Part shown: piece by piece, positions 27,953 to 46,258 of the stretch
Layout of the letters: the number at the start of each line of letters is the position of its first letter
Numbering within the stretch: position 1 is the stretch's first letter
Virus record (IMG/VR): IMGVR_UViG_3300035669_000001
Span: 1-64,000 of that record
Direction: 5' to 3' (one strand)
From: a virus
Length of the DNA stretch: 64,000 nt
The notes under the pieces: model-generated
The model's database searches: none
What the model saw: the letters and a program-made list of their open reading frames with translations, nothing else
What the model was told of the DNA's origin: nothing
Position numbers and translations under genes: made by a program

Positions 27953-29950
27953 GTGAGTATCGACCAGTCCAACTACGCCCAGATGGTGGACGTCACCCAG
28001 GAGGGTGAGGTCAAGCAGCTGCCTGTCGGCGGGATGTTCGACGAGATGGGCGGGACCGGGCTCAAGCGCTCTGCGGGGGTCATCGACGAGGAGTTCATGC
28101 CCGCCCTCCGGGGCACCAAGGGCGTCGCGGTCTTCCGGGAGATGTCGCTCAACGACTACACCGTGGGCTCGTTGCTGTTCACGATCGAGATGCTGCTGCG
28201 CCAGATCGACTGGACGGTGACCGGGGACGACACCTCACCGGAGCAGTCAGAGGCTGTGCAGTTCGTGGAGGAGTGCATGGACGACATGTCCCACTCCTGG
28301 AACGACATGATCGCCGAGATCCTCTCGATGCTCACCTACGGGTGGGCCTGGCACGAAATCGTCTACAAGAAGCGGGTAGGGCCCTGGGAGACCGACCCCA
28401 AGAAGCGCTCCAAGTTCACCGATGGCCGGATCGGGTGGCGCAAGATGCCCATCCGGGCCCAGGAGACGCTGTTCCGGTGGATCTTCGACGTCGACGGCGG
28501 CATCAAGGGGCTCGTGCAGATCCCTCCCCCGGACTACACCCAGCGCACCTTGAGCATCGAGAAGGGCCTGCTGTTCCGCACCGGGATCCACAAGGGCAAC
28601 CCCGAGGGCCGGTCAATCCTTCGGAACGCGTACCGCCCGTGGTACTTCAAGAAGCGCCTGGAGGAGTTCGAGGCGATCGGGGTCGAGCGTGATCTTGCGG
28701 GCCTTCCATTCGCCAAGATCCCCAGCCGGCTGATGGACCCGAACGCCTCCCCTGCTGAGAAGCAGATGTACGCAGCGTTCAAGAAGCTCGTGGCCAACGT
28801 CCGGCGGGACGAGCACGAAGGGGTAGTGATTCCCAGCGACGTCGACGCCGAATCCAAGGCCCCCAAGTACGACTTCCAGCTCCTCGCCTCCGGGGGCAGC
28901 CGCACCTTCGACACCAACGCGCTGATCGGCCGCTACGAGCTGGCCATCCTCTCGACCGTTCTGGCCGACTTCCTCAAGCTGGGTCACGAGGGTCAGGGCT
29001 CCTACGCCATGCACGTGGACAAGACCGGCATCTTCCGGGCTGCTCTCAACACCATAGCCACTGCCATCGCCGACGTCTTCAACCGCTACGCGATCCCGAG
29101 GCTGTTCGCGGCCAACTCCTGGAAGCTGGACAAGCTCCCCAAGATCGAGCCCTCCAACGTCGACCCGCCCAACCTGGCCGAGCTGGGCCAGTTCATGACG
29201 TCCATGGCGGGCCTGGGGATGACCTTCTTCCCCGACCCCGACCTCGAGAAGTACCTGCGTGACACCGCGCACCTCCCCGCCCTCTCAGAGGAGCAGGAGG
29301 AGATGCACCGGATGATGAGCGAGCAGGCCAACGCGATGGAGTTCATGGGGGCCAAGCAGAAGGCCGAGATGGTGGGCCAGGGGATGACCCCCGAACAGGC
29401 CCAGATGCAGTCGGAGATGCCCACCCCGGAGATGCAGGCCCAGGATCCCCAGGCCCAGGCGACCAACCAGAAGATGCAGATGGACCAGGCGGCCTCTGAG
29501 CAGAAGATGGCCCAGGAGGCACAGTCCCACTCACTGCAGCAGGCCACCCAGGCCCAGGGGCTGGAGCAGGCCACCAAGGAGACCGACCTCAAGGCCAAGC
29601 AGGGCGAGGCCGAGCTGGCGACCGAGATGAAGCGGATGCAGATGGAGCTCGACGCCATGAAGGCCAAGATGGGCCTGGAGGCAGAGGGTTCCAAGCAGAC
29701 CCTGGACGCCAAGGCCAAGGGCTCCGCGCTCGACCTCAAGGCCAAGGAGGCGAGCACCAAGGCCGACCTGGACGCCAAGAGGCGGGGCAACGTGATCGAC
29801 CTGAAGGCCAAGCAGGCCCAGGCGAAGCTGCGTCCACAGCCGGCCGCAGGAAGGTCCAAGGGACGCGGAAGGGTGAGCAAGAACGGCAATCTCGGGCCTT
29901 CCAACGGCTGGGGCTGGCCGAACGATGACAACCCGTTCCGTAGGTCCTGA
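27953..29950 (+). CDS. Portal protein (DUF935/Mu gp29-like) with long coiled-coil tail
   Basis: 665 residues, GTG start with GAGAGGA upstream. The core resembles Mu-type portals: VFREMSLNDYTVGSLLFTIE with MLLRQIDWTV near residues 55-85, a PIRAQETLFRWIFD segment, LLFRTGIHKGNPEGRSILRN, then EGVVIPSD and the long helix region. The portal ring is the vertex through which DNA enters and leaves. Residues about 445-640 are unusual: an Ala/Gln/Lys/Glu-rich coiled coil with imperfect repeats of the type LDLKAK/LDAKAK, and a basic end. It overlaps the next gene by one base. Confidence 0.9.
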   Translation: MSIDQSNYAQMVDVTQEGEVKQLPVGGMFDEMGGTGLKRSAGVIDEEFMPALRGTKGVAVFREMSLNDYTVGSLLFTIEMLLRQIDWTVTGDDTSPEQSEAVQFVEECMDDMSHSWNDMIAEILSMLTYGWAWHEIVYKKRVGPWETDPKKRSKFTDGRIGWRKMPIRAQETLFRWIFDVDGGIKGLVQIPPPDYTQRTLSIEKGLLFRTGIHKGNPEGRSILRNAYRPWYFKKRLEEFEAIGVERDLAGLPFAKIPSRLMDPNASPAEKQMYAAFKKLVANVRRDEHEGVVIPSDVDAESKAPKYDFQLLASGGSRTFDTNALIGRYELAILSTVLADFLKLGHEGQGSYAMHVDKTGIFRAALNTIATAIADVFNRYAIPRLFAANSWKLDKLPKIEPSNVDPPNLAELGQFMTSMAGLGMTFFPDPDLEKYLRDTAHLPALSEEQEEMHRMMSEQANAMEFMGAKQKAEMVGQGMTPEQAQMQSEMPTPEMQAQDPQAQATNQKMQMDQAASEQKMAQEAQSHSLQQATQAQGLEQATKETDLKAKQGEAELATEMKRMQMELDAMKAKMGLEAEGSKQTLDAKAKGSALDLKAKEASTKADLDAKRRGNVIDLKAKQAQAKLRPQPAAGRSKGRGRVSKNGNLGPSNGWGWPNDDNPFRRS

Positions 29951-32900
29951 TGCCCTGGGAGCGCACCGGCAGCGGCTACAAGACCGCCAAGGGCGGCTTC
30001 GTCCGTAATCCTGGTCAGTACGAGACCCTTAGGTCCAAGGGGATGTCCAAGAGACGTGCGGCCATGATCTCCAACTCGGTGGGCAAGTCCTACATCGGCG
30101 GCAAGTTCGTCCGGGCGGTGGACCTGACCGCCGAGCAGCGCAAGGTCCTGGGCGCAGGCAAGTACATCCTTTACCGCGGCCGCAACAAGCATGTCAGCAG
30201 AGGTCTTGAGAGGTTCGGACCGAACAACCAATGGAGGCAGTCTCGAGGAGCCAGCGGCAACCGGGGCACCCACCTCAACGAGTACAGGGCAGGGTGGAGC
30301 GCTACCAAGAACGTCGTCGCAGCGCCAGGGAACATGGGTGGTGCTCGCCGGAACAAGCAGGCGTACCGCCGGCTTGAGCAGGTCAACGGGGAGACCAACA
30401 CCGCTGCCTTCACCATCCGTACCGGGTCCAAGAGCACAGGCAAGTCCCACGTCTTCTACAACCGGAAGCGGATGCAGGAGGCCGAGAGTCATAAGCCCGG
30501 CTACCTGGCTGCCGTAGCTCCACACGAGCACGCCCATGCCGCTCCCAAGAGGTCCGGCTACCGGCTCTTCCAGGTCATCCAGGACCCTGCCACGCTGGGA
30601 CGCGAGGAGGCCAGGGCGGACTTCATCGCCTCAGGTGGGAAGCCGGTCAGGGGGCTGAAACGCACGTCCTTCTACGCCCACAACGCCCTGCGGGATCGAC
30701 AGGCGTCCAAGTACAAGTACGTGAAGGACGTCGGGGGCAAGCAGGGCGAGTTCGGTGCGTCCTACATCGCGCACACCCGGATGCTGCACAACAAGATCAG
30801 CAAGCCAAAGAAGGTGTCCAAGGCGTTCGGCGGGGTCAAGCGGGTGGCAGGAGCCTTCGCCAGGAAGCCCACAGCAGAGGCCGCGACCTTCGTGGACAAC
30901 CGGGTGGCTCAGGTTGCTCCCGGGATCACCAGGGCCGCTGCACCGCCGAAGAACGCCACCCAGTCACTGGTCAGCGACACGTTGGCCCACATCAACCGGG
31001 TCAAGGCCAGCCCTCCTGCTGCTGTCCCCTTCGCCCCGCACAAGCCCAAGACCATCGGGTCACTGGGGGCCGAGTGGCATCCCAAGCCACAGGCAGCCGC
31101 TGCGTCCGGGGCTCTCAGCTTCAAGGGCCACAAGGCGCCTCCGCTGACCAAGCCCGCACCAGCGAAGGCAAAGCCTGTTCAGGCACCCCCACCCGCTGCT
31201 CCTCGGCTCTCCCGTGTTGGTGCCCAGCGGAGCAGGTCGGGGTTCCAGGGGTTCACCCGGAGGCCCAGGGTTGTTCCTGCGGCCCCCAGTGCCCCTCCCA
31301 GGGCCGCTCCTGCAGTCACCAGGCCACCTAGTGCCCAGCCGGTGAGCACACCGACCCAGGCTCCGCGTGGCAACGGCCGGCGCAACGCCGGCATTGCAGC
31401 AGCCGGTGCAGGTGCGGTAGGTCTTACCGGAGCAGCGGTCTACTCGAGGAGGAAAAAGGTGGACGGCGTATCAAAGGCGTTCTCCCTACGCGGGGTCGCC
31501 CCGCGCCGGATGGGGGTCAACGTCGGCCAGCATGCCGGTGTGAACACACCACGCAGGGCCGGTGGCTTGTCGAGCATGTTCCAGCGGGGCAGTGCGCCGA
31601 AGCGCGCCATGCAGGCAGGCTCGCGGGAGATGGGTGTCGCTGCCAGCCCTCGTCGGCTGATGGGTCCAGGTGCCGCCCCAGGTGGCGGCATCAACCCCCG
31701 CGGGACTGGACGCCCTGCCAGTGCTGTGGGCCGTCCAGGACTGGCTGCTGCTCCCTCGGTGGCCGCCGGTGGTCCTGCCGCGGCCGCACCCAAGGTGGGA
31801 GGCATCGCCCGTCCGGTCGGTTCCGGCAGCAGGCCGGCGCCGAAGACCGGCGGGATGGCCCGGCCCTACGCCCCGGTGCCCAAGCCTCCGGTGACCACTC
31901 CCAAGCTGCCAGGGGCTGCTGCAGCGCGTCCGTACGCGCCTGTCCCTGTCGCTCCGAGGACCAGCAACCGGAACCGTAACCTTGCCCTGGGAGCAGGCGC
32001 TGTGGGTGCTGGCGGGCTCGGCATGGCCGGTGGTGCTCTCGGGCAGCGCAAGGTCCGCAAGTCCTTCTCGCCCAACCAGGCACGAGACGAAAGGGGCAGG
32101 TTCATGCCCATGGTGCAGATGCTCCAGGTCAACGACTTCGAGCAGACCGAGGACAACGTCGAGAAGAAGTTCGACCGGACCGACAAGATCATCGCCGGAC
32201 TGTCAGCAGTCGGGTTGGCCGGTGCCGGGGCTGCCGCCTACAAGGGCAACAAGGAGGCCAAGCGTCTGGGTGGCACGAAGGGACTCACCACCAAGGAGAA
32301 GATCTTCGGTGTCCGGGGCAAGGTTGCCCAGTGGGCCGGTACCGAGAAGCCCAAAGGTTGGAAGCCCTCGGACCGGGTGCACAAGTCTCTGCGGGTCACA
32401 GGGGCACGTCGGCTCCCGGGGTACAAGCCACATCCTGACGACGTGGAGGAAGCGGTCGCCCTGGCACGCAAGCAGTTCCCCGGTCGCAAGACGACCAAGA
32501 AGGAGGTCCTGGAGGAGCTTCAACCCTCTGGTGGTCTGGGTGGTGTAGCAGGTAGGGGCTTCGGGGCAAGGTCGAACCGCATCTCCAAGGGCTCTCCCGA
32601 CATGGCCGACGTCCACATCGAGGGTGTGCTGCGTCCGGTCGGCAAGATGCGTCGTGCCCGGGTGGAGAAGGGCATGGTCGTGGTGGGCAAGGCCGACGAG
32701 CCCCGCAAGCCCGGCCAGTGGAACGCCAACCAGCGTGCTGGCGCTGCTGGACTGGTGAGCACGTTGGCCGGTGGTGCCATTCCCCTCGGGGTAGGGATCG
32801 GCGCTGGCAGTGCTGCGCGCAAGGGCAAGCGGTTCAAGACCGGCGGCAACGCCTTCGTCCGCACCGGCGCGGAGGGCGGCGTCGGGGGTGCTGTGGGAGC

Positions 32901-33039
32901 AGGTGCGGGTATGTTGACCCGCAACCGTATGGCTACGAAGATCGGCGCAGCTCTCGGTGGAGGTGTCGGGACCGTCCACGGTGCCAATCGGTCGATCGCC
33001 AACTCACGTCGCAAGGGATACCTGAGGAGCGGTTTCTAG
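29950..33039 (+). CDS. 1029-residue basic polyprotein-like head protein with metallopeptidase motif
   Basis: Not recognised as a whole. The N-terminal domain (1-260) has APHEHAHAAP, an HExxH zinc motif (H192, E193, H196), then EEARAD (219-224), an order like that of gluzincin metallopeptidases. The rest is Pro/Ala/Arg/Lys-rich and low in complexity. It contains several Gly/Ala-rich hydrophobic stretches (480-498, 677-698, 747-763, 930-955, 978-1007) next to basic clusters. Short V/I-x-K-A/S/G motifs occur at V289, V507, V702, V810, I878 and V912. PDMADVHI (883-890) copies the start of the major capsid protein, and RDERGRF (712-718) recurs in other head proteins. It overlaps the portal gene by one base. 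I infer an internal head protein that may be cut into pieces. Confidence 0.7.
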   Translation: MPWERTGSGYKTAKGGFVRNPGQYETLRSKGMSKRRAAMISNSVGKSYIGGKFVRAVDLTAEQRKVLGAGKYILYRGRNKHVSRGLERFGPNNQWRQSRGASGNRGTHLNEYRAGWSATKNVVAAPGNMGGARRNKQAYRRLEQVNGETNTAAFTIRTGSKSTGKSHVFYNRKRMQEAESHKPGYLAAVAPHEHAHAAPKRSGYRLFQVIQDPATLGREEARADFIASGGKPVRGLKRTSFYAHNALRDRQASKYKYVKDVGGKQGEFGASYIAHTRMLHNKISKPKKVSKAFGGVKRVAGAFARKPTAEAATFVDNRVAQVAPGITRAAAPPKNATQSLVSDTLAHINRVKASPPAAVPFAPHKPKTIGSLGAEWHPKPQAAAASGALSFKGHKAPPLTKPAPAKAKPVQAPPPAAPRLSRVGAQRSRSGFQGFTRRPRVVPAAPSAPPRAAPAVTRPPSAQPVSTPTQAPRGNGRRNAGIAAAGAGAVGLTGAAVYSRRKKVDGVSKAFSLRGVAPRRMGVNVGQHAGVNTPRRAGGLSSMFQRGSAPKRAMQAGSREMGVAASPRRLMGPGAAPGGGINPRGTGRPASAVGRPGLAAAPSVAAGGPAAAAPKVGGIARPVGSGSRPAPKTGGMARPYAPVPKPPVTTPKLPGAAAARPYAPVPVAPRTSNRNRNLALGAGAVGAGGLGMAGGALGQRKVRKSFSPNQARDERGRFMPMVQMLQVNDFEQTEDNVEKKFDRTDKIIAGLSAVGLAGAGAAAYKGNKEAKRLGGTKGLTTKEKIFGVRGKVAQWAGTEKPKGWKPSDRVHKSLRVTGARRLPGYKPHPDDVEEAVALARKQFPGRKTTKKEVLEELQPSGGLGGVAGRGFGARSNRISKGSPDMADVHIEGVLRPVGKMRRARVEKGMVVVGKADEPRKPGQWNANQRAGAAGLVSTLAGGAIPLGVGIGAGSAARKGKRFKTGGNAFVRTGAEGGVGGAVGAGAGMLTRNRMATKIGAALGGGVGTVHGANRSIANSRRKGYLRSGF

Positions 33040-36554: not shown

Positions 36555-39338
36555 ATGGCGTTCAACGAACACTGCGCTCAGCGCGTCTACGACATCGTCT
36601 CCAAGATGGACGACGACGAGGCCCAGATGTTCGGCCTCCTGGTGGCCCACGACGTGTGGTCGCGTGACGTCCGGGCCAACGAGCGGTACCTCCGCCGGCT
36701 GAAGGACTCCTACGATGCCGAGGTCACGGACACGGTTGCCAAGGCCCTCCTCGAGCACCTGGACGAGGGCGGCGACCCTGAGGCTGCTGTGGCGGTCGCA
36801 GCGGCTGTGGCAGTCGCGAAGGACGACGACGACTGGTGGAAGTTCCAGGAGCGCGACAAGCAGGGTCGCTTCGGCCGGATGACCGGTGCCCAGTACCGGG
36901 CCAACCTGAAGGCGATCAAGGCCAGTGCCAAGCTGACCCAGGCTGAGCGCAAGGCGCAGCTGAAGGACGCCAGGTCCGGACGGGCCAACTACCTCAGCGG
37001 CTCGGGGCTCTACGTCGACGTCAAGGGAGGCGGTCAGGGAGTCGTCCGAGGTACCCAGAGGTTCGAGCAGGACTGGAACCGCCCACCGGACGAGGAGTCC
37101 AACGCCACCACCACCTTCAACCGGCTGAAGACCGGCGGCCAGACGGTGCAGGCCATCGGCGCCGCCACGGGCAGCCAGAAGCTAGCCATCGCGGGTGCGG
37201 TGGGCAACTACGCCGGTCAGTTCGGCCCGGAGGCCGAGAAGGTCGTCGGGCCCTCCATCCGGCGGACCGCCTACCGCTACCGGGGGACAGAGCGTCGTCC
37301 CGACGCTGCCTACGTGCAGATCGCCCAGGCCAACCTCAACGAGGTCAAGCGTGAGGGGCAGCCGGTCACTGCGGAGCAGAAAGCCTTCGCGGCCGAGACC
37401 GCGGCGATCCGGTACTTCCTCGGTGACGACCCGACGGCTGGCAAGCGGGGCGGTGGCTCACGCATCCCCAGTGCGAAGCTCTCCGGGCTGCACCGCGCCT
37501 CGGGCCGGATCACCCCCTCCGAGGGCATCATGATCGACGCCAACGGCAACATCGCCCACCAGGCGGTCGGCTACGGCGAGGACCACTACCTGCCCTTCAA
37601 CCTCAAGAACCTCTCCGCGCTCAAGGGCGGCTCCTACATCCGGACGCGCGAGAGCGGCGGTCTGACCACCGAGGACATCTACACCGGTCTGGTGGCCGGT
37701 GCGCGCTCGATGACGGTGGTGAGCAACTCCGGGGTCTTCACAGTGGACTACGCCGACGACCTGCGCGGAGGCAGGCGCTACAACGACAAGGCCCGGCAGA
37801 TGGTCAGCCGCTACGGCCAGACCCTGGACGCGATCCAGTCCGAGAAGGTGGCCAACCCGGAGCGCGGCCTGTCCTCGCGGGAGAGGGCGAAGATCCAGGT
37901 CGAGACCGAGCAGAAGATCAACGAGGACCCGATCCTGCGGTCCTTCCCCGACGACCAGAAGAAGTCCTGGGTCAAGGAGGCGATCCAGCGCGCCGAGTCC
38001 ACCACCCAGCTGTCCGAGGACGAGATCGCCGAGATCGACCGGAAGTCCAAGGAGCAGGGCAAGACCAAGTCCGACCAGGACATCTTGTTCCGTCAGCTGT
38101 ACGACGAGAAGATCGACGCGGTCAGCCGCCGGCACTACCGGTTGGACGGTGAGGGTTACGCCACCTCGATGGAGGCGCTGCGCGAGCAGTTCCCCTACTA
38201 CATCTCCAACATCAGCTACCGCACGGTCAAGAGCAACGACTCGCTGGCTCCCGACAGGTTCAACCGGGCCACCGACAAGGGCTACGTCAAGCCGCGGTTC
38301 AACCGGCCCGAGGGAGCCCAGTCGGGCTACTACGACGACACCATCACCGGCAGGGGCAAGACCAGCGCCGACCGGACGGACTACCAGAACTGGCGGGTCC
38401 GGGCCAAGCGCGGGGGAGATGTTGCGGCTGTTGCGGATGTTGCGGCAACCACGGGTGCCCCCAACAGCATGAAGGCCACCCAGGACAAGTTCGCGGCCGA
38501 GGCCAAGGAGAAGGCCGGCGACCCGTTGATGAACAACGCCATCATCTCCGACGCCGACTCCCTCAAGGCCACCCACGAGGCCTCCCGCGAGGCCAAGGCC
38601 GGTGGCATCGGGATGCAGTACGAGGGTGTGCACGAGTGGTTCAACGCCGACGACTCCGAGCGGCACGCCATCATGGCCGACCCGGCCCGCAGGGCGAAGC
38701 TCAAGGCCGACATCACCAAGGTGAAGCGGGACTACGCCAAGGAGTTCGGTTCCTCCGCGCCGCAGAACATCGAGTTTGCCGAGAAGAAGGCGAAGACCGC
38801 CATGATGAGCGACGAGGTCCTCGCGGCCGAGAAGGCCCCGGACACCCCGCTGCGGATCACCGACGAGCAGTTCGAGCAGGCGGCTCAGACCGACCACATC
38901 CGCAACCTCACCCAGCAGGAGGACCACGACCTGCAGGCGATCAGCCAGGACCTGCGTACCCAGCGCGCCCTCACGGCGAAGGCGGGCAACGACAAGGAGA
39001 CCACGTCGCTCACCCAGCAGATCACCGCGCTGGAGTACGCCCGCGCCCTCAAGGCCCGCACCACCGAGGTGCCGACCGACGTCTACGCCGAGATCGCCCA
39101 GCGCACCAGCCCGACCAAGGGCACGCTCACCCCGGTGCCGAAGGTCTCGTCGAGGGCCACGCTCACGTCCACCCAGGCCACTGAGCAGGTCCGCCGGCTG
39201 CACAACCAGCACCGGCTCGGGCTGATCGACGCCAACGAGTTCGAGCGGAGCGTCAGAGAGGTCATCGAGGACTCCGACATGGACGATAACGAGAAGCAGG
39301 TTGAGTACCGCCGTGCTACCGGGAACATCATGCGGTGA
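36555..39338 (+). CDS. 927-residue orphan head-module protein
   Basis: Not recognised. The N-terminal 110 residues are helical and carry TVAKALLEHLDEGG, an Ala/Val run and VAKDDDDWW followed by RDKQGRF, the element also found in two other head proteins. A folded middle (about 290-440: SGRITPSEGIMIDANGNIA, YGEDHYLPFNLKNL, SGVFTVDYADDLRGGRRY) is followed by long charged helices to the end. Only non-GC-rich hints of repeats; no Walker, HExxH or nuclease motif. It overlaps the MuF-type gene. An internal head or ejection protein is my best guess. Confidence 0.65.
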   Translation: MAFNEHCAQRVYDIVSKMDDDEAQMFGLLVAHDVWSRDVRANERYLRRLKDSYDAEVTDTVAKALLEHLDEGGDPEAAVAVAAAVAVAKDDDDWWKFQERDKQGRFGRMTGAQYRANLKAIKASAKLTQAERKAQLKDARSGRANYLSGSGLYVDVKGGGQGVVRGTQRFEQDWNRPPDEESNATTTFNRLKTGGQTVQAIGAATGSQKLAIAGAVGNYAGQFGPEAEKVVGPSIRRTAYRYRGTERRPDAAYVQIAQANLNEVKREGQPVTAEQKAFAAETAAIRYFLGDDPTAGKRGGGSRIPSAKLSGLHRASGRITPSEGIMIDANGNIAHQAVGYGEDHYLPFNLKNLSALKGGSYIRTRESGGLTTEDIYTGLVAGARSMTVVSNSGVFTVDYADDLRGGRRYNDKARQMVSRYGQTLDAIQSEKVANPERGLSSRERAKIQVETEQKINEDPILRSFPDDQKKSWVKEAIQRAESTTQLSEDEIAEIDRKSKEQGKTKSDQDILFRQLYDEKIDAVSRRHYRLDGEGYATSMEALREQFPYYISNISYRTVKSNDSLAPDRFNRATDKGYVKPRFNRPEGAQSGYYDDTITGRGKTSADRTDYQNWRVRAKRGGDVAAVADVAATTGAPNSMKATQDKFAAEAKEKAGDPLMNNAIISDADSLKATHEASREAKAGGIGMQYEGVHEWFNADDSERHAIMADPARRAKLKADITKVKRDYAKEFGSSAPQNIEFAEKKAKTAMMSDEVLAAEKAPDTPLRITDEQFEQAAQTDHIRNLTQQEDHDLQAISQDLRTQRALTAKAGNDKETTSLTQQITALEYARALKARTTEVPTDVYAEIAQRTSPTKGTLTPVPKVSSRATLTSTQATEQVRRLHNQHRLGLIDANEFERSVREVIEDSDMDDNEKQVEYRRATGNIMR

Positions 39339-41506
39339 GCGTCCCCGCCTTTGACCAGGAGCCACTGACGCCCCAGGAGGCCTACCAGGTCGACTACGTC
39401 ATCCGAGGGGCACAGGGGGGCTCCACGCTGGCTGTGGCGGCCGCACTGGGCGGGGCCTTCCTGGTGTACCGGGCGTACATGCGGAGACGCCTGCGGGAGC
39501 GCATGGGCTCGCTGGAGGGCACCACGCCCGAGGAGGTGATGCGCGAGACCAACCAGGTGTTCTCCACCTTCATGCCCACCTGGACGGCGATGGCCGCACC
39601 TGCTCTCTTGCAGGGCTACCTGTCCGGGGTGGCCGAGACGGAGTTCGGGCTGGACGAGGCGTTCCTGTCCGAGCTGGCCGATAACTACGCCTACTCCCTC
39701 GGGATGCACATCAACCAGGTCTCCGGCGACGCTCTCGTGCGCGGGTACGCGGCCCAGGTGAACCGGAAGGTCCCGGCCAAGGTCGCCCTGGGCAACGTGA
39801 TCGACGCGGTCGGGGTGACCAACTCCCACATGCGGACTCTGAACGTGATGCTCTCGGGCAAGGAGGACGCCAAGCTCAGCGAGACCCTGATCCCCTCGGT
39901 CAAGAAGGCCAGGGCACAGCGCCAGGTGATGGCCGCCCTCAACCAGCGCGCCGAGGTGATCGGCGACTCGGAGTCCTGGAACGCCAAGCAGCAGGGCAAG
40001 CAGATCGCCTGGTTGTACGCCCAGCGTCAGGGGTTCATCCCCTCCACCGCTACCCGGGAGTGGATCACCGCCGACGACGAGCGGGTCTGCCCGTCCTGCG
40101 GCCCGCTGCACAAGGTGGAGCTGCCGGTCGCCGAGCAGTTCGACATCCCGAACGTCGGCAAGTTCTGGTCCCCGCCCGTGCACCCGAGGTGCCGCTGCGA
40201 CGTGCGTCTCAAGGTCGGCCTGGGGCAGATCATCGCCAACAACGTGGTCTTCGGGCAGTTCGGCCGGCAGTGGCTCAAGCCCGACGACGTCGAGGAGGTC
40301 GGAAAGTCCGACAACCCCCACGACAACGACTGGGACACCCAGCCGAGACAGAAGACCGGCAGGTTCGGCGCGCGTCCTGAGGTTCGTTTCAAGGAGGCTG
40401 ACGTCGACCTCGATGCGGCCATCGCCCAGGCCACCCAGGCGGCGCAGATCGAGGACGCGGTACCCAAGGGTCCGATCCTCGGGCGAACGGTGCTGGGAAA
40501 GCCAGGGGTGATAGGCGAGACGACACTGGGCAAGCCTCCGGTGCTCGGCCAGGTCGTCCTCGGCAAGCCTCCTGTCCTCGGCGGGTCCAAGCTCGAGTCG
40601 CAGGGTCTGCAGGCCCAGCGGATGAAGTCTCACGCCCTGCAGGGCCGCAAGCTGGACAAGAGCAAGCTGGACCATGCCAGGCGGATGGCCCGGGCCGAGA
40701 TGGACGGCCGGATCATGGCACTGCCCGGGGACATCTCGGGCACGGTGGTGGACGACGAGGTCAAGGCACCCGAACCCGACTACTCCGACCTGGTGCCCAC
40801 TCCGGAACCCATGTTCGCCGTTGCCGATCCGCGTTGGGTTATTCGTGGACCAAACACCGACTCGCGTTCAATCAACGCTTCCAACGGTATGTACCGGCTG
40901 GACGGAGCCGAGGTGATAGGCGGGGTGGACAAGCTCCAGGCCAAGATCGAGGAGCTCGAGGCCGAAGCTGACGACGAGTACCTGGAGTACCTCTTTGACA
41001 GTAATGAGGCGAGCTACTTCGACAACGAAACCGGTTGGGAGAGTCCCGTCCCCGAGCACGTCTACGCCGCAGCTATGGAGTGGGTTCGGGCCCAGGAACA
41101 GACAAACATGGCGGTGGCGGACTTCACGGTCGAGCTTGATGCGTACGGGCCGCTGTGGACCAAGGACGGCACGCCGGTGGAGGGAGGGTACAACCATCCT
41201 GACTACGAGGCCCTCTACGAGAACGGGGATATTGAGTTTGACCTGGTTGACAGCCAGTACGTGCAGATCTCTGACATCGCGGACAAACTGAGTCTTTGGG
41301 AGCACGTCAGCGATACTCAGCCCCGGATCATCCAGCTGGACAAGGTCAGGGGCAACGACGTCGACTACGACCCTGACGGTGCTCCTTATGCCCAGGTGAG
41401 CGATAGCTACAAGATGGACGGGATGTCCACGGTCACCATCAACGGGAGGCACTATGTGACCGCCCGACTCGAACCGGCCTGGCTGGACGAAGGCGGGAGA
41501 ATGTAG
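39335..41506 (+). CDS. MuF-type minor head protein with long C-terminal extension
   Basis: 723 residues, GTG start. The MuF-type core ends with WITADDERVCPSCGPLHK (C252, C255) and SPPVHPRCRCDV (H283, C286, C288), the zinc-like signature of head-morphogenesis proteins. A hydrophobic span lies near residues 30-46. Then V322-G-K-S, RQKTGRF (338-344), three LGKPxVxG repeats (387-417) and, from about residue 490, an acidic domain with different codon habits (WVIRGPNTDSRSINASNG onwards). MuF proteins sit at the portal vertex inside the head, and some carry effector domains at the C terminus. Confidence 0.8.
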   Translation: MSVPAFDQEPLTPQEAYQVDYVIRGAQGGSTLAVAAALGGAFLVYRAYMRRRLRERMGSLEGTTPEEVMRETNQVFSTFMPTWTAMAAPALLQGYLSGVAETEFGLDEAFLSELADNYAYSLGMHINQVSGDALVRGYAAQVNRKVPAKVALGNVIDAVGVTNSHMRTLNVMLSGKEDAKLSETLIPSVKKARAQRQVMAALNQRAEVIGDSESWNAKQQGKQIAWLYAQRQGFIPSTATREWITADDERVCPSCGPLHKVELPVAEQFDIPNVGKFWSPPVHPRCRCDVRLKVGLGQIIANNVVFGQFGRQWLKPDDVEEVGKSDNPHDNDWDTQPRQKTGRFGARPEVRFKEADVDLDAAIAQATQAAQIEDAVPKGPILGRTVLGKPGVIGETTLGKPPVLGQVVLGKPPVLGGSKLESQGLQAQRMKSHALQGRKLDKSKLDHARRMARAEMDGRIMALPGDISGTVVDDEVKAPEPDYSDLVPTPEPMFAVADPRWVIRGPNTDSRSINASNGMYRLDGAEVIGGVDKLQAKIEELEAEADDEYLEYLFDSNEASYFDNETGWESPVPEHVYAAAMEWVRAQEQTNMAVADFTVELDAYGPLWTKDGTPVEGGYNHPDYEALYENGDIEFDLVDSQYVQISDIADKLSLWEHVSDTQPRIIQLDKVRGNDVDYDPDGAPYAQVSDSYKMDGMSTVTINGRHYVTARLEPAWLDEGGRM

Positions 41507-41508
41507 CC

Positions 41509-42360
41509 ATGGACGTACTGGAGGCTCTGCGCGCGCACGGTGAGGCTGGGGCGGCTGTCGTGGACCTGCTCTACGGCGAGGGTGCGGAGGAGGTTGTCAA
41601 GGCTCTCAGTGAGGACCGCAAGCGGAAGATCGCCACCGCCTCCAACGTGGTCGGGATCGGCGCTGGGCTGGCTGCCATCCCCGGTGCCACCCGCGACTTC
41701 CGGAACGCCGCGAAGACTGCCAGGGGTGCCAGTGACAAACCGGTCGGCGTCCTGAAGCCGGTGGGCAAGATCCGGGGCAACATCCGCGGTGGTCTCAAGG
41801 CCACCAAGAACTTCCTGGGCAAGCCGAAGACCGCGCTGGCACTGGCCGGCGGCGGTCTGGCCCTGCAGGCGGGGAACGTCGGCGGGGACTTCGTGACCAA
41901 CCAGGTCCTCCGCGCCGACCAGAAGAAGTCGGGCGTCTCCAAGGGGCTGACCGACATCGAGTGGACCGGCGAGTTCTCCAAGATGGACACCGACAAGCGC
42001 CAGGTGTTCGGGTGGGCCTCGGTCACCGCGGTCGACGGCGTCCCGGTGACCGACCTCCAGGAGGACGAGATCGACCTCGAGGAGATCGAGAAGGCCGCCT
42101 ACTCCTACGTGGCCAAGTCCCGGGTCGGCGGCAACATGCACAAGAAGACCATCGACGGCTCCCCGGTGCACGTCTCCGACATGATCGAGTCCTTCGTGGT
42201 CACCCCGGAGAAGAAGCAGACGCTGCACCTGGGCAACGACACCCCGGAAGGGTGGTGGGTCGGCTTCCAGGTCAACGACGACGAGACCTGGGACGCGGCC
42301 AAGAACGGCGAGCTGGTGGGCTTCTCGATCCACGGAACGGGAAAGAGGCGTGACGGCTGA
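41509..42360 (+). CDS. XkdF-like head maturation protease
   Basis: 283 residues. The C-terminal 130 residues match the XkdF family: FSKMDTDKRQVFGWASV, EEIEKAAYSYVAKS, NMHKKTIDGS and VSDMIESFVVTPEK, ending GWWVGFQVNDDETW and GELVGFSIHG. XkdF-like proteins are predicted serine-type prohead proteases of Bacillus PBSX and many actinophages. The N-terminal 150 residues contain Gly/Ala hydrophobic stretches and V-x-K-A/G/S motifs (VVKAL, VSKGL), so the protease may cut itself. It lies directly before the basic protein and scaffold genes, the usual position. Confidence 0.75.
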   Translation: MDVLEALRAHGEAGAAVVDLLYGEGAEEVVKALSEDRKRKIATASNVVGIGAGLAAIPGATRDFRNAAKTARGASDKPVGVLKPVGKIRGNIRGGLKATKNFLGKPKTALALAGGGLALQAGNVGGDFVTNQVLRADQKKSGVSKGLTDIEWTGEFSKMDTDKRQVFGWASVTAVDGVPVTDLQEDEIDLEEIEKAAYSYVAKSRVGGNMHKKTIDGSPVHVSDMIESFVVTPEKKQTLHLGNDTPEGWWVGFQVNDDETWDAAKNGELVGFSIHGTGKRRDG

Positions 42361-43589
42361 TGCCCATGGTGAAGCTGGTGTTCGTCCCGGAGACGACGAA
42401 CAAGCCGACCAGGCAGTCCCACAACATCGTGGCGCTGCCCAAGATCGAGCCTCTGCAGGGCAAGGGGAAGCCCCAGTTCGGGCGCAACGGCAAGCCGGTC
42501 AGCAACGTCTCCGATGCGCTGTTCGGGCGCGGGGGAGGCGTCCACACCGACGTGATCCGCAAGGCCCTGAGCAGGGAGCAGAAGGTGGGCGTGGGAGCCG
42601 CCGGCGTGGTAGGTGCCGGGCTGGCAGCAGGTTCGGTCGGACGAGCGGTCAGATACGGCGGCCAGGCGCGCAACGCCTTCCGGGTGGCCCAGGGTTTTAG
42701 TCATGGCCCCGCCCACCAGGCCGGGGCCACCCTCAAGCAGTACGGCGCACATCGCAGGAAGATGGCTCTCCGCAACGTGGGTGCGGCGACAGTGGCGGGC
42801 GGGCTCCTGGCTGGCGGTACGGCCGCCACGATGTCCAGTGCCAACGCAGCGAACCAGCGCCGCACCGGTGTGGCCAAGATGAGTGACGCGGAGCTTCGCC
42901 ACCGCAAGCGCGTCCAGGCCGGGATCAGCATCGGCACCTCCACCCTCGGTCTCTCCGCGCTGGGGTCAAAGGCCGGGGCCGGTGTGCTCCGCAAGCTCAA
43001 CAAGGCCCCGGGTGCGGCCCATCGGCTGGACAAGGCAACCACCAACCTGCTCACCAGCGGTGCAGGACTGGGTGGGGTCGGTGGGTTCAACTTCGCCTCG
43101 GTGCAGCGCCAGGAGGCCAGGAAGCGGACGCCGGTGGTAAAGGCTTACGACCCCGAGCGCAACCGGGAACGCAGGGCCAGGCAGGAGGCCAAGGTGGCAG
43201 GAGTCGTCGGAGGTGCAGCGTCCGGCGGTGCGCTAGCGGCTGGAGGTCTCGCAGCACGACGTGGGTTTCAACGCCGGGACGAGACCACCCGGATAGGTAG
43301 TCCGGTGGAGCTCGAACAGGAGGTTCTCCCCGGTGGCGGCAAGACCCGACTGGACCCGAGGGGGCGAGTTCACCACGGGCCTGCTCGGAAGTTCCGGACG
43401 GCGAACTTCGGGGAGAAGATGTCCTCGGCGACCAAGGTCAAAGGGCTCAAGGCCAGCCAGGTGAGGGCGGGCAAGGTCGGTGTCGGACTGGCCGCGCTGG
43501 GCGTCGGCGGGCTGGTTGCGTCGGACCGGATCGCCTCCTACTCCCGGGGGAAGGGGCGGAAGTACTCACCCCGGTTCAAGCGGGACTGA
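42360..43589 (+). CDS. 409-residue basic, glycine-rich head protein
   Basis: ATG overlaps the protease stop by one base. Strongly basic, with six Gly/Ala-rich hydrophobic stretches (about 76-96, 139-160, 186-209, 232-246, 279-300, 372-392), each next to Arg/Lys clusters, and motifs I66-R-K-A and V259-V-K-A. No enzyme motif. The build is the same as the C-terminal two thirds of the 29950 protein. An internal, possibly processed, head protein is inferred; it might also bind DNA. Confidence 0.65.
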   Translation: MPMVKLVFVPETTNKPTRQSHNIVALPKIEPLQGKGKPQFGRNGKPVSNVSDALFGRGGGVHTDVIRKALSREQKVGVGAAGVVGAGLAAGSVGRAVRYGGQARNAFRVAQGFSHGPAHQAGATLKQYGAHRRKMALRNVGAATVAGGLLAGGTAATMSSANAANQRRTGVAKMSDAELRHRKRVQAGISIGTSTLGLSALGSKAGAGVLRKLNKAPGAAHRLDKATTNLLTSGAGLGGVGGFNFASVQRQEARKRTPVVKAYDPERNRERRARQEAKVAGVVGGAASGGALAAGGLAARRGFQRRDETTRIGSPVELEQEVLPGGGKTRLDPRGRVHHGPARKFRTANFGEKMSSATKVKGLKASQVRAGKVGVGLAALGVGGLVASDRIASYSRGKGRKYSPRFKRD

Positions 43590-43627
43590 ACGGGTTGCAG
43601 GCTAAGACAGAATTGTGGGTGAGGAAC

Positions 43628-44806
43628 ATGCCAAAGCTCAGTGATCTGAACATCGACGAGGTCAGCCTCGTGCGCAAGGGCGCCAACCAACATGCCCGGG
43701 TGGCAATCGCGAAGTCAGCAGGAGGAGAAGTGGACGAGGAGTACTTCGACCAGGAAGGAAACGCGGTCGACGTCGAGGAGCTCGAGCATGGCGACATCGT
43801 CTTCGACTCTGACGGTGAGGCCTACCAGTACGACGAGCCTGGTGACGATGACGACGAGGTCGAGAAGGCCCTGTACGTCGGTGGCCGCGAGGTCACCAGC
43901 CGGGTCGGACGTGCCGCTGGCAAGGCGTACATCGGAGCCGGCCGCAAGGCCAAGTCCGCCAACAAGTTCCGGATCCAGACAGGTGCGATTGCCGGGCAGG
44001 CAGCCCGCAGGGGCGCCAAGCGTGTATCCAGCGCTGCCGGTACGGGTGCCGGGTTCGTCGCCGGCAACGCCAAGCGTGGTGCAGGGGCAGTGGCGGGAGC
44101 CGCACGTAGCACCGGCACGGCAGCCGGGAACGCGGGCAACGCCATGGGCGGGGCGATCCGCGGGGCCGCGGCGCAGACCGAGGGCTTCCTGCGCACCGAG
44201 AACAACGCCTTCAACACCCGCGGCCGGATCGGCGCCCTCGGTGCCGGTGGTGTGCTCGCCGGTGCCGGTGGCGGCTACGCGGCAGGCAGCAACGGCCGGG
44301 TCCGCAAGAGCGCGTCCGACGACCTCCGGGAGGAGCTCTCCAAGGCACTCACCGACGACGACCGGGACGAGGTGATCGCGAAGGCCTTCGGGTACGTCGA
44401 ACAGGCCGAGCAGGTCGCCCAGGAGGCCTGGGAGATCGCCGAGGAGGAGCGGGAGAACCGCCGGGCTGCGGAGTTCTACGAGGTGGCCAAGTCCTACGAC
44501 ATGGTCCCGGTGGATACCGAGGACCTCGCGATCGCCATGATGCACATGGCCGACCTGCTGCCCGAGGAGGACGTGCAGGTCATCGCCAAGGCCCTGGGCT
44601 TTGCGGCCGACGTGGCCGACGAGCTCTACGAGGAGCAGGGCAACGTGGGCGGTGGCGACAACTCCGACGTGATGGAGCAGCTGCAGACGTTCGCGCGCAA
44701 CCGGGTCGCCAAGTCCGGTGAGGGCTCAGCCGAGCAGTACCTGGTCGATGCCCTCAACCATGACCCAGCGGTGTACGACCAGTACCTCGCGGACAACAGC
44801 CGCTGA
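43628..44806 (+). CDS. Scaffold-like capsid assembly protein
   Basis: 392 residues from ATG 43628, with GTGAGGAAC in front; a TTG 33 bases upstream is the alternative. It begins LNIDEVSLVRKGANQHARVA, a phrase found where prohead protease and capsid genes meet. Then an acidic part, a Gly/Ala-rich basic stretch (95-220) and an acidic helical C-terminal half (LREELSKALTDDDRDEVIAK, QVAQEAWEIAEEERENRRAA) typical of scaffolds that precede decoration and capsid genes in actinophages. Nine V/I/L-x-K-A/S/G motifs occur, most in the helical half, consistent with destruction by the neighbouring protease. Confidence 0.7.
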   Translation: MPKLSDLNIDEVSLVRKGANQHARVAIAKSAGGEVDEEYFDQEGNAVDVEELEHGDIVFDSDGEAYQYDEPGDDDDEVEKALYVGGREVTSRVGRAAGKAYIGAGRKAKSANKFRIQTGAIAGQAARRGAKRVSSAAGTGAGFVAGNAKRGAGAVAGAARSTGTAAGNAGNAMGGAIRGAAAQTEGFLRTENNAFNTRGRIGALGAGGVLAGAGGGYAAGSNGRVRKSASDDLREELSKALTDDDRDEVIAKAFGYVEQAEQVAQEAWEIAEEERENRRAAEFYEVAKSYDMVPVDTEDLAIAMMHMADLLPEEDVQVIAKALGFAADVADELYEEQGNVGGGDNSDVMEQLQTFARNRVAKSGEGSAEQYLVDALNHDPAVYDQYLADNSR

Positions 44807-45262: not shown

Positions 45263-46258
45263 ATGCCTCGTCCTGACATGGCAGATGTCCATATCAACAC
45301 CCCGCTGACCAACGTCAGCATCGCCTACATCCAGAACGCCTCCAACTTCATCGCCACCAAGGTCTTTCCCAAGCTCCCGGTGGACAAGAGGTCGGACCTG
45401 TACTGGAAGTACTCCAAGAGCGACTGGCGGCGTACCGACGTCCAGCGTCGTGCTCCCAGCACCGAGTCTCCGGGCACGGGCTGGAACACCTCGATGGACC
45501 AGTACTTCTGCCACGTCTACGCAGTGCACAAGGACATCGACGACCAGCTCCGGGCGAACGCGGACTCGGTCTTCCGGCTGGACAGCGATGCCACTGCCTT
45601 CGTGACGAACCAGATGCTCATCAAGCGCGACCTGGACTGGACCGCCTCGTTCTTCAAGACCGGGGTATGGGGCACGGACAAGGCGCTGCTGGCGACCGAT
45701 GCCAACCCGGAGAACATCCGCTGGGACCGGGCCACCTCGGACCCGATCGGTCTGTTCGGCACGCTGCAGCTCGCCTTCATCCAGCAGACGGGCTTCAAGG
45801 CCAACACCGCCGTGTGCGGTGCCAACGTCCTGAAGGCGCTGAAGAACCACCCGGCCATCATCGACCGGATCAAGTACACCCAGAAGGGCATCGTGACGAC
45901 CGACCTGATCGCCACCCTGCTCGACGTCGACCGGGTGTTCGCGGCCTACGCCACCTACTCCACCGGACCCACCATCCCTGATGCGGTGGCCCAGGACGCA
46001 GCGGCGACCAACACCTTCATCGCGGACCCCAACTCGGTGCTGTTGTGCTACTCCCCGGCCAGCCCGTCTCTGATGAGCCCGGCCGCTGGGTACACCTTCA
46101 CCTGGAAGGGCTACCTCGGAGGGAACGCGCAGGGGATCCGGATGACCCGGTTCCGCATGCCGGCCATCCGGTCGGACCGCATCGAGGCCGAGATGACCTA
46201 CGACATGCACGTGATCTCCCCGGACTGCGGTGTGTTCCTGACGAGTGTTGTCGGCTGA
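45263..46258 (+). CDS. Major capsid protein
   Basis: 331 residues, ATG after AGAGGAGAT. Starts PRPDMADVHINTPLTNVSIA, the opening of the HK97-fold capsid proteins of this phage type, and continues with FIATKVFPKLPVDKRSDLYW, KDIDDQLRANADS and a C-terminal RMPAIRSDRIEAEMTYDMHV. The protein has no N-terminal delta domain, so scaffolding is by the separate upstream gene. The short length fits this. The N-terminal PDMADVHI is copied inside the 29950 protein. Confidence 0.92.
   Translation: MPRPDMADVHINTPLTNVSIAYIQNASNFIATKVFPKLPVDKRSDLYWKYSKSDWRRTDVQRRAPSTESPGTGWNTSMDQYFCHVYAVHKDIDDQLRANADSVFRLDSDATAFVTNQMLIKRDLDWTASFFKTGVWGTDKALLATDANPENIRWDRATSDPIGLFGTLQLAFIQQTGFKANTAVCGANVLKALKNHPAIIDRIKYTQKGIVTTDLIATLLDVDRVFAAYATYSTGPTIPDAVAQDAAATNTFIADPNSVLLCYSPASPSLMSPAAGYTFTWKGYLGGNAQGIRMTRFRMPAIRSDRIEAEMTYDMHVISPDCGVFLTSVVG

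Follow-up and report, generated by a model that had tools for sequence, protein, structure and literature searches.

The window, that is, the whole stretch of DNA that was analysed, comprises 64 kb out of a 77.9 kb IMG/VR record and contains a phage head module with genes for the portal, a protein of 1029 aa, a collagen-containing fibre-like protein, a MuF-containing protein, an XkdF-type protease, two more internal proteins, a cement-like protein and the major capsid protein (MCP). By profile match, the MCP belongs with Phage_cap_E (Pfam E 4.6e-06) and phrog_1005 (E 1.6e-82), and the product of 41509-42360 with Peptidase_S78_2 (XkdF; E 4.2e-19). The short segment that copies the start of the MCP within another head protein is called the tag below. 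The features are as follows.

27953-29950: portal gene
29950..33039, + strand: cargo- or polyprotein-like gene of 1029 aa, the tag carrier, with a DUF7218 stretch at residues 18-47 and an HExxH-type module near residues 190-230
32581..32589, + strand: I-S-K, the psi-x-K site directly before the tag, with a predicted head-protease cut after K880
32590..32619, + strand: tag G-S-P-D-M-A-D-V-H-I, residues 881-890, copy of the MCP N-arm
32620..32670, + strand: basic stretch behind the tag, EGVLRPVGKMRRARVEK
41509..42360, + strand: XkdF-type head protease (Peptidase_S78_2), the usual tag carrier in relatives, tag-less in the window
41593..41601, + strand: V-V-K in the protease N-terminus, where the psi-x-K is kept and the tag is gone, with ALSEDRKRK in its place
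43595..44806, + strand: acidic, probably scaffold-like protein, whose counterpart is tagged in two relatives (L163 and L166)
45263..46258, + strand: MCP (phrog_1005 head protein; Phage_cap_E)
45266..45313, + strand: MCP N-arm, residues 2-17, PRPDMADVHINTPLTN

The peptide PDMADVHI is found at residues 883-890 of the 1029-aa protein (32596-32619), where K880-G881 of an ISKG motif immediately precedes it, and at residues 4-11 of the MCP (45272-45295). The underlying DNA, CCCGACATGGCCGACGTCCACATC in the 1029-aa ORF and CCTGACATGGCAGATGTCCATATC in the MCP gene, is equal at 20 of 24 bases, the four differences, spread across eight codons, being silent. The original prediction, which described a peptide shared at protein level, written in differing codons and preceded by I-S-K-G, is thus confirmed at these positions. 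Outside collagen-like repeats, PDMADVHI is the sole 8-mer common to ORFs of the window (83 ORFs on the + strand, 20,504 aa), with 0.04 shared 8-mers expected from shuffled window ORFs. A shared 8-mer alone is modest evidence, and relatives were therefore examined; the recurrence of the pattern among them is stronger evidence than the 8-mer statistics of the window.

Recurrence of the capsid protein start in related phages

A tblastn search with P0002 gave nothing in 50,697 phage records and, in IMG/VR, only a contig carrying an identical gene, so that relatives were gathered via the MCP and the portal. A degenerate DNA pattern for K-M-x-P-D-x-[AST]-[DE]-[LV]-H-[VI], outside which AGY serines fall, retrieved no viral contigs. 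The MCPs of 80 relatives begin with MPNPTQSDLHVNVPLTN or close to it, following the pattern xxP-T-Q-[SA]-D-L-H-V-N, and P4, D8, H10, N12, P14, L15 and N17 of the arm are invariant among 23 aligned relatives. The AlphaFold monomer model of the MCP (pLDDT 49) has an unreliable N-arm and is unfit for placing the arm. Two contigs from IMG/VR, of 105.7 and 136.0 kb, have two closely similar MCP loci each (L019/L024 and L020/L022), which is probably due to the assembly of more than one genome length or to the presence of two related phages.

A second copy of the MCP-start pattern, located in another head protein, occurs in about 45 related contigs. It takes the form [VI]-x-K-x-x-P-[DT]-x-[SA]-[DE]-[LV]-[HA], followed by a basic stretch, and the regular expression for it matches 33 same-strand vs 2 opposite-strand ORFs of the relatives. 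A profile built from the MCP arms of 11 other phages, of which the K is not part, yielded 13 matches with a score of at least 14 (1.8 expected from shuffles), 11 of them in protease or cargo genes; a K is placed exactly at -3 from the P in 11 of the 13, against a K background of 2.8%. Scored without the K column, the proteases fall into two groups, 33 tagged ones, all with K at -3, vs about 10 intact untagged ones, including that of the window. Each of the 40 listed instances has psi-x-K, with I, V or F two positions before K; directly after K, 25 instances have M and the others A, S, G or I. A basic tail stands behind 36 of the 40, with a mean charge of +4.2 vs +0.27 in control windows. Tagged phages are deeply diverged, with MCP identity down to 38%, and the tag was found independently in L151, L159, L162, L163, L166 and L170. 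When each locus was searched with its own MCP arm, L166 scored 33 and L170 scored 40, both against a null maximum of 26. Counted over the stretch from portal to MCP, where available, the tag occurs about once per genome.

The M6 of PDMADVHI is confined to the window's own two copies: other listed MCPs have Q there, and none of the other listed tags has M. The window peptide is an unusual form of the family's MCP arm, and the letter-for-letter identity of two copies is particular to this phage. In other phages only the core pattern is kept. Related phages in which one copy changes without the other had been named as what would refute the original prediction and, exact identity being lost elsewhere, such phages do exist as far as letter-for-letter identity is concerned. 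The arm is also copied only in part, since H10, invariant in MCPs, is replaced by A or S in many protease tags and N12 is missing from most. Co-variation between the two copies, the proposed check, is suggestive: at position 7 (S/A) tag and MCP are associated with a Fisher p of 0.0009, uncorrected for phylogeny, and on the tree the comparison reduces to 3 independent pairs, 2 of them agreeing on average, too few for significance.

Every tagged relative is a contig from IMG/VR or from binned metagenomes, and no tagged phage was found among the named isolates checked. Pattern and own-arm searches gave no second copy in the regions covered of KPP23, Kovu, Kharcho, ValentiniPuff, RHph_Y60, RDJL Phi 1, Laroye, Mulvp2, Tedan, R6L and S0112, several of which have no definable arm. 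KPP23, RDJL Phi 1, RHph_Y60, Tedan and S0112 have the same MCP family and gave no second copy in the own-arm search, from which it follows that the tag is not a general need.

Carriers of the tag

The commonest site of the tag in relatives is the N-terminal extension of the XkdF-type protease. The original prediction saw in the segment a means of tethering the cargo to the shell; the tag is not specific to this cargo, as the protease is the carrier in most relatives. The ten untagged proteases all lie within the MCP clade of the window (10 MCPs, support 97/92), throughout which the protease has no tag, and are nested among tagged ones, corresponding to one change on the tree. Where the genomes of this clade are fully covered from portal to MCP, the tag is found outside the protease in 6 of 7. 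It lies inside the 1029-aa gene in the window, close to the C-terminal end of cargo-like genes in G006, G007 and G010, and, in G004 and G005, in tiny genes of 43 and 57 residues that are situated just upstream of a large gene and encode hardly more than the tag and its basic tail. The close relative G001 has only a doubtful candidate, KDSPAGPDV with a basic tail, encoded by an 81-aa gene that immediately precedes the fibre gene. In L163 and L166 the scaffold-like gene is the carrier. Finally, in L170, a phage-like contig in a Thiotrichales MAG, a head-module protein of 1046 aa (L170:3198-6335) starts with MPNITPSDVHVDQEV and the MCP with MPNILPGDVHVNREL; this copy, the sole such case, is a true N-terminus with no K before it, and the protein ends in a topoisomerase IB core (PF01028, E 1.4e-18). 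The tag moves between genes while about one per genome is kept.

Several features of the carriers were noted besides. The C-terminal ~105 residues of the 1029-aa protein (32716-33036) match separate genes in G005 and G010 (L086, L089), which gives the window gene the appearance of a fusion in which a once C-terminal tag became internal. Right behind the window tag, GVLRPVGKMR (32623-32652) resembles GVLKPVGKIR in the N-extension of the window protease (41509-42360), possibly a remnant of the tag moving out of the protease. The cargo-like genes of the window clade (window ~30517-30640; L118, L119, L115, L117) share a module of the HExxH type, behind which come RS.YR or RS.WR and EEARAD or EEGRAD; this unit is present twice in L119 and could be zinc-peptidase-like.

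Predicted cleavage, register and a possible docking role

The sequence psi-x-K-[ASGM] is enriched in the head genes of the window (35 vs 15.8 expected), including the scaffold-like protein (43595..44806; 9 vs 1.0 expected), and psi-x-K sites are likewise in excess in the internal head proteins of relatives (991 vs 681), S, M and A (and C) being favoured at P1'. The K before the tag is a predicted cut site of the head protease. Translation starting internally at K-M is an alternative that was rejected, M being absent from 15 of the 40 tags, that of the window among them. Relatives' MCPs start with M-[PA]-x-P or M-N-P, and the initiator Met is normally removed by Met aminopeptidase from M-[PA] starts and normally kept in M-N, so that two residues precede the P of the predicted mature protein either way. 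Assuming a cut after K, the same number precedes the P of the tag in 39 of 39 pairs; under this assumption the tags have the same pattern at the same distance from a free N-terminus as their own MCP. Mimicry of a free N-terminus would require just such a shared register, and the free form itself is seen in L170. For cutting after a basic residue there is precedent, as the phi12 capsid protein is cut between R128 and L129 and the SaPIbov5 Ccm between K87 and Q88, the N-arm of the capsid protein being traceable from the cut (PMC8569155). A search of open-licence papers gave no paper on XkdF cleavage.

One model, to which we give about even odds, can accommodate the sequence findings: conservation of the tag, K at -3, the register, the basic tail, a single copy or so per genome, the changes of carrier and the one true N-terminus. 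The segment may be a portable tag for docking that reproduces the N-arm of the MCP of the same phage; cleavage by the head protease would expose it, and it would fasten internal proteins to the inside of the shell. Within the procapsid, it would bind an inner-face shell site of the type filled by the MCP N-arm and so hold its carrier (a protease, a scaffold-like protein or cargo) against the shell. Cleavage after the K of psi-x-K by the XkdF-type protease would then leave an arm-like peptide with the free N-terminus x-x-P-..., in the register of the mature MCP, while the basic tail could face DNA or an acidic scaffold. Docking, cleavage and the role of the tail are deduced steps. The proposal of the original prediction that the segment replaces an MCP N-arm is partly supported: it gains from the occurrence in ~45 relatives, from a register common to tag and MCP, from the basic tail and from the carrier changes.

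Several known systems share some of these properties. Like the tag, the capsid targeting sequence (CTS) of T4 IPI-III and Alt is short, takes internal proteins into the prohead and involves processing by the head protease; as described in the relevant part of PMC7411985, however, the CTS lies on the upstream side of the cut, is cleaved away and interacts with the core, whereas the tag copies the MCP N-terminus and lies downstream of psi-x-K, the predicted cut, in 40 of 40 listed instances rather than in an N-terminal propeptide. The same part of that source proposes that the C-terminal propeptide of the SPN3US protease gp245 targets the protease into the prohead, but this is at the other protein end and is removed, and no MCP likeness is reported there (PMC7411985). 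Family-1 encapsulin targeting peptides are also short and hold cargo to the inner face of a shell with the HK97 fold. The pocket that they occupy is built in part from the N-terminal helix of the shell protein, a helix that takes the place of the extended N-arm seen in other HK97-fold shells (PMC8346489). They differ in being usually C-terminal on the cargo, in involving neither a shell-protein copy nor a protease, and in their consensus, SDGSLGIGSLKRS; the tag sits internally, at the N-terminus or 30-40 residues before the C-terminus. The C-terminal helix-and-hook of the 80alpha scaffold belongs to an internal protein that contacts the MCP at the N-arm, but it binds beside the arm and is not reported as its sequence copy (PMC5644958). 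In HK97 and phi12, with their delta domain and N-arm, and in SaPIbov5 Ccm, P1 is basic and the N-arm starts right at the cut, but the arm is on the capsid protein or a capsid homologue, not on a protease, cargo or tiny protein (PMC8569155). The tag would work like a capsid targeting sequence or an encapsulin targeting peptide and, given its position downstream of the predicted cut and its different consensus, is a member of neither group. No paper on capsid-N-terminus mimicry by internal phage proteins, or on such a tag, was found in a search limited to open-licence papers.

The strongest rival to docking, to which we assign about one chance in four, is that tag and MCP N-arm share a third partner, such as a scaffold-like protein, the portal or the protease, and that the tag is not on the shell site of the MCP arm. 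The scaffold of 80alpha does touch the MCP N-arm (PMC5644958), basic tails would fit an acidic scaffold-like protein, and some phages carry the tag in the scaffold-like or protease gene itself; this last point cuts both ways, as a tagged scaffold-like protein (L163, L166) would need to bind itself or yet another protein. It is rather improbable that the motif is a mere substrate signal of the head protease, K followed after the cut by x-x-P-x-x-S-D-L-H, the MCP N-terminus resembling a cut product through descent from a once-cleaved MCP. This would explain the psi-x-K before each listed tag, its enrichment in internal head proteins and the preference for S, M, A (and C) at P1', but the same proteins contain dozens of further psi-x-K sites that have no tag and the L170 copy has no K, which makes a pure cleavage signal less likely; a general signal would also be unexpected at about one tag per genome. 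That the MCP start region was once duplicated into a neighbouring gene, the copy being retained by chance alone, is improbable to a still greater degree: the residue most often found after K is M (25 of 40), as though the MCP start codon had come along, and the window copies are close at the DNA level (20/24), but the persistence of the tag across deeply diverged phages, the K at -3 in 33/33 tagged proteases and the presence of the tag in another gene where the protease lost it point to selection. A chance match, for which the shortness of eight residues might speak, can practically be dismissed given the 0.04 shared 8-mers expected in the whole window, the 33 vs 2 strand matches in relatives and the MCP-arm profile result.

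Extending the docking model beyond this family is a more tentative step. Tailed phages might use N-terminus mimicry as a general capsid-targeting code, in which a tag exposed by proteolysis or present at a true N-terminus takes MCP-arm positions, anchors a protease, scaffold, cargo enzymes or a small basic peptide, and switches host genes at about one copy per genome. Detailed knowledge of how enzymes are loaded into phage heads exists for few systems (T4, giant phages). If the model is true, a tag of ~10 residues on several unrelated carriers would be a simple predictor of head cargo in uncultured phages, would give a direct handle for cargo-loading tests, and would link phage cargo loading to encapsulins through a pocket formed partly from the N-terminal region of the shell protein.

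Two further features were observed in the head proteins of the window. Gly/Ala-rich hydrophobic stretches with basic flanks, resembling membrane-inserting segments, are present in the internal head proteins encoded at 42360-43589, 41509-42360 and 29950-33039. Another short motif, R-[DQ]-x-x-G-R-F, is found in three head genes, namely the 1029-aa gene (RDERGRF, 32083-32103), the gene at 36555-39338 (RDKQGRF, 36852-36872) and the MuF-containing gene (RQKTGRF, 40346-40366), and the topoisomerase cargo of L170 contains the related LRDAHGRW and IRDFHGRW.
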